Positions 3,277 through 6,167 of a DNA stretch of 64,000 bases are shown piece by piece. The notes beneath the pieces are model-generated. The model ran no database searches. It was not told the DNA's origin and worked only from the letters and a program-made list of their open reading frames with translations. The first letter of the stretch is position 1; every line of letters starts with the position of its first letter. The stretch lies in the NCBI RefSeq assembly GCF_004151105.1, contig NZ_PHRF01000162.1:91409-155408 (forward strand), read 5' to 3'. The stretch comes from Streptomyces sp. L-9-10 (GTDB taxonomy: Bacteria; Actinomycetota; Actinomycetes; Streptomycetales; Streptomycetaceae). Position numbers and translations under genes: made by a program.

Positions 3277-3511
3277 CAGGTGTCTGCCGGACGGCCCCGG
3301 GCCGTTCCGACGTGGAAAACCATAGCAAACATTCGACGGTGCCCGATCACGGACCGATCCGGGGGACGGCCCGGTGGTGGCCCGGGGGCGGGGGGGCTTG
3401 TGACGGGCGTATGACAGGCCGGGGGCTGTCTTGGGGTGCGGGGGCGGGGCGCGGGAGTATGTGGAGGAACAGCAGCGGGAACCACCAGCAACGACCGTGG
3501 GAGTGAGCAGC

Positions 3512-4837
3512 GTGAGCGAGCCGAACGCGGGCAGGACCGTCTCGGGCGAGGACGAGGTCGTTGACCTCTGCCGTGATCTGATCCGGATCGACACCAGCAA
3601 CTACGGCGACCACTCGGGACCGGGGGAGCGGGCCGCCGCCGAGTACGTCGCGGAGAAGCTCGCCGAGGTGGGCCTCGAACCCCAGATCTTCGAGTCCCAC
3701 AAGGGCCGTGCCTCCACCGTCGCCCGGATCGAGGGCGAGGACCCCTCCAAACCCGCACTGCTCATCCACGGTCATACGGATGTCGTCCCGGCCAATGCCG
3801 AGGACTGGCGGCACCACCCGTTCTCGGGCGAGATCGCGGACGGCTGCGTCTGGGGCCGGGGCGCGGTCGACATGAAGGACATGGACGCGATGACCCTCGC
3901 GGTCGTACGGGACAGGATGCGCAGCGGCCGCAAACCCCCGCGCGACATCGTGCTGGCCTTCCTCGCCGACGAGGAGGCGGGCGGCACGTACGGGGCGCGG
4001 TATCTCGTCGACAAGCACCCCGGGCTCTTCGAGGGTGTCACGGAGGCGATCAGCGAGGTCGGCGGCTTCTCCTTCACCGTCAACGAGAATCTGCGGCTCT
4101 ATCTCGTCGAGACGGCGCAGAAGGGCATGCACTGGATGCGCCTGACCGTGGACGGCACCGCCGGGCACGGCTCCATGACCAACAACGACAACGCCATCAC
4201 CGAGCTGTGCGAGGCCGTGGGGCGGCTCGGCCGCCATCAGTGGCCGGTGAGGGTGACCAAGACCGTACGGTCCTTCCTGGACGAGCTGTCCGACGCGCTG
4301 GGCACCCCGCTCGACCCGGAGGACATGGACGCCACGCTCGCCAAGCTCGGCGGCATCGCGAAGATGATCGGCGCCACCCTGCGCAACTCCGCGGCGCCCA
4401 CCATGCTCGGTGCCGGCTACAAGGTGAACGTGATCCCCGGCCAGGCGACCGCGCATGTCGACGGCCGTTTCCTGCCCGGGTACGAGGAGGAGTTCCTGGC
4501 GGACCTCGACCGGATTCTCGGCCCGCGGGTCAAGCGGGAGGACGTGCACGGCGACAAGGCCCTGGAGACCAGCTTCGACGGCACGTTGGTGGACGCCATG
4601 CAGACCGCGCTGTCGGCGGAGGACCCGATCGCGCGGGCCGTTCCGTACATGCTCTCGGGCGGCACCGACGCCAAGTCCTTCGACGACCTCGGCATCCGCG
4701 GCTTCGGTTTCGCGCCGCTCAAGCTGCCGCCGGAGCTGGACTTCGCCGGGATGTTCCACGGTGTGGACGAGCGGGTACCGGTTGACGGCCTTCAGTTCGG
4801 TGTGCGGGTGCTGGACCGCTTCATCGACCACAGCTGA
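3512..4837 (+). CDS. M20/M25/M40 family metallopeptidase
   Basis: 441 residues from the GTG at 3512, chosen because GGGAG (3499-3503) sits eight bases upstream; longer in-frame starts have no such site. Cytoplasmic dizinc amidohydrolase/peptidase fold. The first metal motif reads HGHTDVVPAN, followed by GRGAVDMKDMDA and the catalytic/ligand pair in DEEAGG. A lid domain follows (about residues 190-300), and a late ligand region is in MLSGGTDAKSFDDLG and FHGVDERVP. This resembles the M20 subgroup that cleaves dipeptides or acylated amino acids (dapE/argE-like). Exact substrate is not deducible. Monocistronic between the tRNA and the chaplin locus. Confidence 0.92.
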   Translation: MSEPNAGRTVSGEDEVVDLCRDLIRIDTSNYGDHSGPGERAAAEYVAEKLAEVGLEPQIFESHKGRASTVARIEGEDPSKPALLIHGHTDVVPANAEDWRHHPFSGEIADGCVWGRGAVDMKDMDAMTLAVVRDRMRSGRKPPRDIVLAFLADEEAGGTYGARYLVDKHPGLFEGVTEAISEVGGFSFTVNENLRLYLVETAQKGMHWMRLTVDGTAGHGSMTNNDNAITELCEAVGRLGRHQWPVRVTKTVRSFLDELSDALGTPLDPEDMDATLAKLGGIAKMIGATLRNSAAPTMLGAGYKVNVIPGQATAHVDGRFLPGYEEEFLADLDRILGPRVKREDVHGDKALETSFDGTLVDAMQTALSAEDPIARAVPYMLSGGTDAKSFDDLGIRGFGFAPLKLPPELDFAGMFHGVDERVPVDGLQFGVRVLDRFIDHS

Positions 4838-4925
4838 CAAGGGAGTTGGAGATTCCGGTAATCGACAGCGTGTGCAGGCGCGACTGAGAAGAGTGAATGC
4901 GACCATACGCTCGTAGCCTCATTAC

Positions 4926-4986
4926 TTCCTCCTCGTTACAGGTGATGCGGTCCGCGGCTGGGACCGCATTTGCCAACGAGGAGGAA
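4926..4986 (+). promoter_or_regulatory. RBS-sequestering leader hairpin of chpH
   Basis: TTCCTCCTCGTT (4926-4937) is the exact reverse complement of AACGAGGAGGAA (4975-4986), the region holding the ribosome-binding site of chpH (ATG at 4989). A second helix stacks inside it: ATGCGGTCC (4945-4953) with GGACCGCAT (4961-4969), loop of seven. Folded RNA would bury the whole Shine-Dalgarno sequence in a 12-bp stem. A possible -10 box TACGCT lies at 4906-4911 (alternative TAGCCT 4914-4919), which would place the whole hairpin in the transcript. The pairing is seen directly; translational control is inferred. Confidence 0.8.
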
Positions 4987-4988
4987 CA

Positions 4989-5222
4989 ATGATCAAGAAG
5001 GTCGTCGCTGCTGCGGCTGTTACTGGTGGTCTGGTGCTCGCGGGTGCGGGCATGGCCGTCGCCGACGCGGGCGCCCAGGGTGCCGCTGTCGGTTCTCCCG
5101 GTGTCCTCTCGGGCAACGTGATCCAGGTTCCGGTCCACGTTCCGGTGAACGCGTGCGGTAACACGATCTCCGTGATCGGGCTGCTGAACCCCACCTTCGG
5201 CAACGTGTGCATCAACAACTGA
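4989..5222 (+). CDS. chpH: Short secreted chaplin
   Basis: 77 residues. A basic start (MIKK) and hydrophobic core form a Sec signal peptide ending near residue 26 (AVADA). The mature part is a single chaplin domain of about 50 residues with the two conserved cysteines (C56, C74) in ACGNTISVIGLLNPTFGNVC. Chaplins assemble at the air-water interface into amyloid-like films that let aerial hyphae and spores leave the aqueous phase (established for Streptomyces). A chpC-type long chaplin follows directly, the arrangement known for chpC/chpH, hence the symbol. The SD GAGGAGG is strong but locked in the leader hairpin at 4926-4986. Confidence 0.95.
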   Translation: MIKKVVAAAAVTGGLVLAGAGMAVADAGAQGAAVGSPGVLSGNVIQVPVHVPVNACGNTISVIGLLNPTFGNVCINN

Positions 5223-5263
5223 CGTCAAATCTCTCTCACCCCGTGAGGGTCTGAGCCCGAGTG

Positions 5264-5294
5264 GCCCCGGAGTGCGCGCCATGCACTCCGGGGC
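5264..5294 (+). terminator. Terminator between the chaplin genes
   Basis: GCCCCGGAGTGC (5264-5275) pairs with GCACTCCGGGGC (5283-5294) as a perfect 12-bp stem with a 7-nt loop, 42 bases after the chpH stop. It should largely separate chpH transcription from the following long chaplin gene. Confidence 0.75.
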
Positions 5295-5363
5295 CGCTGG
5301 GCATCCTGCCCCGGCACCGATGCCCAGGGCAGCTCCGGAAGGCAGAAGGCAGGGATCGAAGCT

Positions 5364-6167
5364 ATGAGACAGGTCACGCGCAAGGGCCTGATCACCGTGG
5401 CGGCCGCGGGCGGCGTACTCGCCCTCGGCGGCGGCTACGCACACGCGGACTCGGGAGCGAGCGGCACCGCCGCGAACTCCCCGGGAGTGCTGTCCGGCAA
5501 CAACGTTCAGGTTCCGGTGCATGTCCCGGTCAATGTGTGCGGGAACACCGTCGATGTCGTCGGGGTGCTCAACCCCGCCTTCGGCAACAACTGCGCCAAT
5601 GTGTCCGGCAAACCGGCCGGCGGCGCACACGGCGGGGGCCAGGACGGCGGATACGGCGGCGGCGCCCACACCGGCGGCTCCCACCCCGGCGCCACGCACA
5701 CCGTGCCGGGCGGCGGCTCCCACGCGGGAGGCGGCGCGGCCAACTCTCCCGGCGTCGGCTCCGGCAACGCGGTCGAGGTGCCGGTCGACGTCCCCGTGAA
5801 CGTCTGCGGGAACACGATCGACGTCGTCGGCCTGCTCAACCCCGCCTTCGGCAACGGCTGCGCCAACGACGCGCCCGTCCACCCGCCGGTCAAGCCCGAG
5901 CAGCCCGGCACGCCCGGGGAGCCCGGGGAACCGGTCGCCCCGCCCGAGCCGGGAACGCCACCGTCCGAGCGCGCCATCCCGCCGGCGCCGGGTCAGCCCA
6001 GCGCCCCGAACAACCCCGAGACGCAGACCGTCGCACAGCCCAAGGGCACCGAGGTCCTCGCACAGACCGGTGCGGGCGCGCTCGGGATCGCGATTCCGGC
6101 GGGCGCGGGCATGCTGCTCGCGGGCACCATCCTCTACCGCCGCTCCCGGGCCCGTTCCGCCGCGTAG
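5364..6167 (+). CDS. chpC: Long chaplin, sortase-anchored, two chaplin domains
   Basis: 267 residues. A signal peptide (1-28, ending YAHADS) is followed by two chaplin domains at about 36-80 (C59, C77) and 125-170 (C148, C166). They are joined by a Gly/His-rich linker (AHGGGQDGGYGGGAHTGG). A Pro/Glu-rich wall-spanning stretch (170-228) follows, then LAQTG at 232-236, a hydrophobic segment and the basic tail RRSRARSAA. LAxTG plus membrane anchor is the sorting signal of Streptomyces class E sortases, so the protein should be covalently fixed to peptidoglycan and display chaplin domains for film assembly. ChpA, B and C of S. coelicolor share this design; C is chosen from adjacency to chpH. Start has GGCAGGGA upstream. 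Confidence 0.92.
   Translation: MRQVTRKGLITVAAAGGVLALGGGYAHADSGASGTAANSPGVLSGNNVQVPVHVPVNVCGNTVDVVGVLNPAFGNNCANVSGKPAGGAHGGGQDGGYGGGAHTGGSHPGATHTVPGGGSHAGGGAANSPGVGSGNAVEVPVDVPVNVCGNTIDVVGLLNPAFGNGCANDAPVHPPVKPEQPGTPGEPGEPVAPPEPGTPPSERAIPPAPGQPSAPNNPETQTVAQPKGTEVLAQTGAGALGIAIPAGAGMLLAGTILYRRSRARSAA

Follow-up and report, generated by a model that had tools for sequence, protein, structure and literature searches.

The chpH Locus and the Fold of Its Leader

The window (the whole 64,000-nucleotide stretch of Streptomyces sp. L-9-10 DNA that was analyzed) carries a gene for a short chaplin of 77 aa (Pfam PF03777, E 1.7e-28), whose start codon lies at 4989–4991 according to the ORF reading, between an M20-family peptidase gene and a second, long chaplin gene. 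Chaplins form a coat on the aerial hyphae of Streptomyces, and their control has been discussed mainly at the level of transcription. The short gene is called chpH here because the gene order is as in S. coelicolor, where, in the excerpts available, chpC is sco1674 and chpH is sco1675. The features on which the analysis turns are as follows, with plus-strand features marked.

3431–4837, M20-family peptidase gene, upstream of chpH and in the same direction
4889–4899, plus strand, AAGAGTGAATG, a near-invariant sequence at a fixed distance upstream of the −35 element (GTGAA positions 99–100% identical in 185 leaders)
4912–4917, plus strand, predicted −35 element CGTAGC (CGTAGC in 209 of 227 parsed leaders)
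4918–4933, plus strand, predicted promoter spacer of 16 nt, ending in CCTCCT, complementary to the Shine-Dalgarno sequence
4926–4937, plus strand, left arm of the outer helix, overlapping promoter spacer and −10 element and predicted to be absent from the main mRNA
4934–4939, plus strand, predicted −10 element CGTTAC (TCGTT invariant in 77 of 77 protein-found leaders; CGTTAC in 211 of 227 parsed leaders, for which CGTT was required)
4941–4974, plus strand, inner stem-loop, with compensatory changes and a G-U bias
4941–4944/4971–4974, plus strand, lower stem of the inner stem-loop
4944–4947, plus strand, transcription start as predicted from the promoter, 5–8 nt after the −10 element
4946–4953/4961–4968, plus strand, core of the inner stem-loop (4945 also pairs with 4969 in the window)
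4979–4984, plus strand, Shine-Dalgarno sequence AGGAGG (columns invariant in 77 of 77 leaders), within the right arm of the outer helix (4975–4986)
4989–5222, plus strand, chpH-type short chaplin gene
5364–6167, long chaplin gene, downstream of chpH

Two nested helices precede the start codon. TTCCTCCTCGTT (4926–4937) is the exact reverse complement of AACGAGGAGGAA (4975–4986), which gives a 12-bp outer helix, and ATGCGGTCC (4945–4953) is that of GGACCGCAT (4961–4969), which gives a 9-bp inner helix. An earlier note on this DNA had described both the exact 12-base anti-Shine-Dalgarno and the inner helix, and the sequence bears it out on each. The minimum-energy fold of 4880–5060 contained both helices plus four more inner pairs (4941–4944 with 4971–4974, leaving 4970 bulged) and was more stable than 200 of 200 dinucleotide shuffles (z −3.5). 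Pairing in the window sequence is present and is beyond chance. When the fold was begun at 4945 the inner hairpin was kept, and the whole was not unusually stable (z −0.56).

A search of 4700–5400 with Rfam covariance models returned no match over 4926–4989; its nine matches up to E 5 all fell within 5214–5337 and scored below their gathering scores. A terminator or attenuator was also considered and rejected, as no T run follows the hairpin and the terminator scan was negative. Between the two chaplin genes, 5255–5302 forms a very strong G+C-rich hairpin (fold z −4.1) that has no T tail and was missed by the terminator scan; it is likely a terminator or processing site.

Leader Samples and Distribution of the Element

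Leaders for comparison were taken from the best 80 of 286 loci found by protein search. Four of these 80 (L069, L071, L073, and L079) were dropped as other chaplins, and the remaining 76 together with the window make up the 77 protein-found leaders, which form 73 distinct alignment rows. Further loci were added with a covariance model to give 227 parsed leaders; 11 of 237 loci failed the leader search, the four dropped loci among them. Removing 40 duplicates and two leaders with a 17-nt spacer from the 227 left 185 distinct leaders. Because parsing of the 227 leaders required CGTT and the covariance model includes promoter columns, the 77-leader set is the fairer test.

The covariance model found the element in 289 of 295 sampled Streptomyces genomes. 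In an order-wide sample, with a search that loses weak matches, it was found in 181 of 197 genomes. The 16 order-wide genomes lacking it comprised one from another genus of the family and 15 from other families. A record named Actinacidiphila alni (L001) carried the element, and a Kitasatospora chaplin that has diverged beyond the model (L071) showed CGTACC-N16-CGTTCA followed by a 6-bp stem 47 nt before the ATG region. Judged from these sequences, the element is not limited strictly to a single genus.

The MSRIAK-type chaplins (L270–L299) form another class, in which 26 of 30 loci could be parsed and four could not. CGTNAC-N16-CGTT was the best motif in 24 of the 26 parsed leaders, with 10–11 of 12 matches. 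These leaders also have a predicted stem-loop after the promoter, with a stability against shuffles that is weak at best (z −0.2 to −2.5), and for this class we would claim the shared layout alone.

A Predicted sigma-BldN-like Promoter Across the Outer Arm

The sigma-BldN consensus is CGTAACN16CGTTGA in the portion of the source available (PMC2375139). In the window, CGTAGC and CGTTAC stand 16 nt apart and agree with this consensus at 9 of 12 bases, with CGTTAC in place of CGTTGA. A blind scan with the BldN motif reached at least 9 of 12 consensus matches in 74 of the 77 protein-found leaders, one of the 74 being placed elsewhere; the best match lay at the common place in 75 leaders and elsewhere in two. 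Among those 75, the spacer was 16 nt long in 73 and 17 nt in two, and the −10 element ended 46–52 nt before the ATG. The 227 parsed leaders gave a similar picture (16 nt in 225, 17 nt in two; −10 end 46–55 nt before the start codon). A near-fixed internal spacing combined with a variable distance to the start codon is expected of a promoter. A purine was found 5 nt after the −10 element in 88% and 6 nt after it in 86% of the 185 leaders. Chaplin genes have been placed under direct BldN control, as S. venezuelae targets, in the accessible parts of two studies (PMC12096830, PMC4255298).

Taken together, the motifs and their spacing point to a sigma-BldN-like promoter, for which we infer both the sigma factor and the exact start. 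AAGAGTGAATG, upstream of the −35 element, is probably an activator site. A genome-wide search for CGTANC-N14-17-CGTT returned 203 sites against 89 in a reversed control, a count that we leave out of the argument, and no rodlin gene was recognized in the two stretches of this genome that were read for BldN-like promoters.

Since the predicted start (about 4944–4947) lies downstream of the anti-Shine-Dalgarno arm, the main chpH mRNA should lack that arm. This alters what the earlier note had made of the pairing. Its claim that the ribosome site of the normal chpH mRNA is locked is not supported, as the locking arm overlaps the −10 element and the −35/−10 spacer and is predicted to lie outside the mRNA. 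With the arm in the predicted promoter, chaplin translation that is “off by default” is likewise not favored for the promoter-started mRNA; such a default is possible for read-through RNA, or if there is a second start further upstream.

An ATG or GTG stands at the predicted transcription start (4944–4947 and equivalents), about 5–7 nt past the −10 element, in 167 of 185 leaders. Its T has undergone 2 inferred changes, compared with 30 in the pairing partner, and in the window the frame opened by this triplet would end on the chpH ATGA. A leaderless upstream ORF was considered and rejected, because the triplet falls in all three phases with respect to chpH (70, 67, and 30 leaders) and no reading frame is conserved.

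Different Evolution of the Inner and Outer Helices

The inner stem-loop has changed in the manner of a paired RNA. Changes on both sides were seen in 7 of its 13 pairs, and the eight-pair core accumulated 19 same-branch compensations, compared with a mean of 2.06 and a maximum of 6 in 400 runs of a tree null. Core cells were paired in 95.7% of cases (null maximum 94.4%). The lower stem was paired in 84.0% of cells (null maximum 78.3%), with 3 compensations where the null reached at most 4. Among transitions at Watson-Crick pairs of the core, 54 led to G-U and 7 to A-C (binomial p 4e-10), an excess that argues for selection on the sense-strand RNA, as a DNA operator predicts no such asymmetry. 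A stricter G-statistic with average-product correction and a tree null yielded no significant pair; its top-ranked pair among all pairs was the inner pair 39–53 (E 1.2). Despite this non-significant statistic, the substitution pattern indicates that the inner stem-loop is maintained by selection as sense RNA across many species. The paired stem begins 0–2 nt past the −10 element in 169 of 185 folds.

The outer helix behaves differently. The sequences of 3 of 185 distinct leaders, the window’s among them, allow all 12 bp, and those of 137 allow the inner six (CCTCCT/AGGAGG). In the 77-leader alignment, a central pair is disrupted in 69 of the 73 distinct rows, and both sides have changed in 1 of 876 cells across these rows. 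Of the transitions, 27 led to G-U and 32 to A-C, which reveals no pairing preference, and the share of paired cells (81.2%) is one that the null also reaches (mean 78.0%, maximum 84.3%). There were no same-branch compensations in the outer helix and none in its null, for the invariant ribosome site makes up the right arm; because this arm hardly varies, the double-change test is powerless here. Conservation of the anti-Shine-Dalgarno helix with compensatory change was thus not found in the 185 leaders and 73 rows, a result whose power is limited by the invariance of the Shine-Dalgarno sequence. On this comparative evidence, the outer pairing is not being preserved as a helix. Covariation, which the earlier note had named as the check on its hairpin, thus upholds one half of it: the inner stem is kept by compensatory change, whereas the outer helix goes unsupported.

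Pairing of the spacer CATTA with the start-codon region (columns 9–13/75–79) was also considered and rejected, with 103.6 pair-breaking single changes (mean of 20 resolutions) and 2 compensations.

Possible Roles of the Leader

We give a probability of roughly 0.55 to the reading that a developmental promoter is joined here to a 5′-terminal stem-loop that protects a short-leader chpH mRNA. A BldN-type ECF sigma factor with RNA polymerase would start transcription at about 4944–4947 and produce a leader of about 42–45 nt, with its 5′ end inside the paired stem or a few nt from it, and a short stretch holding the Shine-Dalgarno sequence, which starts 4 nt past the base of the stem, and the AUG would follow. 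The stem would shield the 5′ end from 5′-end-dependent decay, that is, from pyrophosphate removal, RNase J, and RNase E/G, and the outcome would be a long-lived chaplin mRNA in aerial growth. Protection of the 5′ end appears to us the most likely function of the stem-loop.

A hairpin or ribosome site placed at the 5′ end of a Bacillus mRNA, or close to it, can stabilize long stretches of the message, according to the part of the source available (PMC3997798). Chaplin and rodlin transcripts were up in S. venezuelae mutants of RNase III and RNase J, as described in the accessible text of PMC12096830; these data are compatible with protection and do not go beyond that, because the authors assign the effect to the BldD and BldN pathway. 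Against this reading, the ribosome site was only half open in modelled promoter-started RNA (median 0.46 unpaired over 185 leaders), and the promoter-started leader as a whole, like the stem-loops of the other chaplin class, is at best weakly more stable than shuffles. A start at 4945–4947 would leave most of the lower stem (4941–4944) untranscribed, though the lower stem looks selected too.

A second reading, possible but tentative, gives the outer arm a role of its own. The anti-Shine-Dalgarno would be part of the promoter DNA and be transcribed only when polymerase comes from the upstream peptidase gene, so that the long RNA would mask the chpH ribosome site, and in promoter-started RNA, without the arm, the site could open. 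The −35/−10 spacer would then double as an anti-Shine-Dalgarno, with read-through RNA locked and promoter-started RNA unlocked and bearing the protective stem-loop. CCTCC or CTCCT occurs in 151 of 185 chpH spacers, whereas none of 24 spacers from another chaplin class has either, and the anti-Shine-Dalgarno columns of the spacer underwent 5–17 inferred changes, compared with 24–43 in the remaining spacer, although such conservation would also be explained by a DNA-binding site or a preference of the promoter. The duplex of spacer and ribosome site was predicted at −12.8 kcal/mol, compared with −8.7 for shuffled spacers; a leader’s own spacer (−12.84) had no advantage over swapped ones (−12.73; the difference lies within the variation among 20 swaps), which gives no sign of co-adaptation, and changes in the arm show no pairing preference, with a C to T share similar to that of other spacer positions.

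In the modelled RNAs, openness of the ribosome site fell below 0.2 for 169 of 185 read-through transcripts and for 2 of 185 promoter-started ones, and it exceeded 0.5 for 0 of 185 and 69 of 185, respectively; complementing seven spacer bases reduced the closed RNAs (<0.2) from 70 to 2 of 77. However, 56% of trials with shuffled spacers also gave a closed site (<0.2), and among 17 ordinary ORFs of the window, 7 were closed by the same measure. As for read-through itself, a co-directional ORF with an RF(I/L)D-like motif at its C-terminus lies upstream at 227 of 227 chpH loci. The scan for terminators was negative, but it depends on a T run and does not pick up the strong hairpin at 5255–5302 either. 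If the spacer does act in this manner, start-site choice would couple transcription and translation of a morphogen genus-wide.

The riboregulator of the earlier note, a 61-nt hairpin within the chpH mRNA that keeps the ribosome site shut until a ligand, protein, RNA, or temperature change opens it, has become improbable. The exact 12-bp complement and the stable fold in this genome speak for it, and a second promoter further upstream would be possible; against it, the arm lies inside the predicted promoter, changes in it carry no pairing bias (the double-change test being powerless here), and the helix is complete in few leaders (3 of 185), with its central pair broken in 69 of 73 rows and 1 of 876 cells changed on both sides. 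Similarly improbable is a DNA operator in which the inner palindrome is bound by a dimeric regulator. Its position over the predicted start speaks for it, and MtrA and other regulators do act at chaplin promoters in the portions of the literature available; against it, loop length varies among species, so that half-site spacing is not kept, and the 54 to 7 excess of G-U over A-C is explained by RNA pairing and not by DNA symmetry.

Relation to Known Leaders and Promoters

The pairing observation that began this work holds and its meaning changes: what is left is an RNA element that is smaller yet real. The predicted start of the chpH mRNA carries a stem-loop kept by selection, in a layout repeated in another chaplin class. 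This points to a control, in aerial cells, of how long the mRNA lasts or of how ribosomes reach it, and the case shows that a palindrome with the look of a riboregulator can contain promoter elements. No report of a chpH leader structure was found in the openly accessible papers searched, and the main texts of the Streptomyces RNA papers examined do not contain chaplin, chp, or SCO1675. The novelty of the chpH stem-loop is provisional.

With the sigma-BldN chaplin promoters, chpH shares the CGTAnC-N16-CGTT layout; it differs in that its spacer carries an anti-Shine-Dalgarno, which is absent from 24 of 24 spacers of another chaplin class. Masking of a ribosome site that depends on the transcription start is known from the lysozyme gene e of phage T4 and for IS10 transposase. 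As in those systems, read-through RNA of chpH would hide the ribosome site and locally started RNA would not, which for chpH is a modelled result; unlike them, chpH is a bacterial developmental gene, and its arm is proposed to lie in the −35/−10 spacer.

For the preferred reading, a protective stem-loop at the 5′ end, the counterparts are the 5′-terminal mRNA-stabilizing stem-loops of the E. coli ompA and papA and the B. subtilis aprE leaders. The chpH leader resembles these in having a stem-loop at or near its 5′ end, which in chpH is a predicted one, with the ribosome site just downstream, in the mRNA of an abundant surface or secreted protein. It differs from them in that the chpH stem is kept by covariation and is tied to a developmental promoter.
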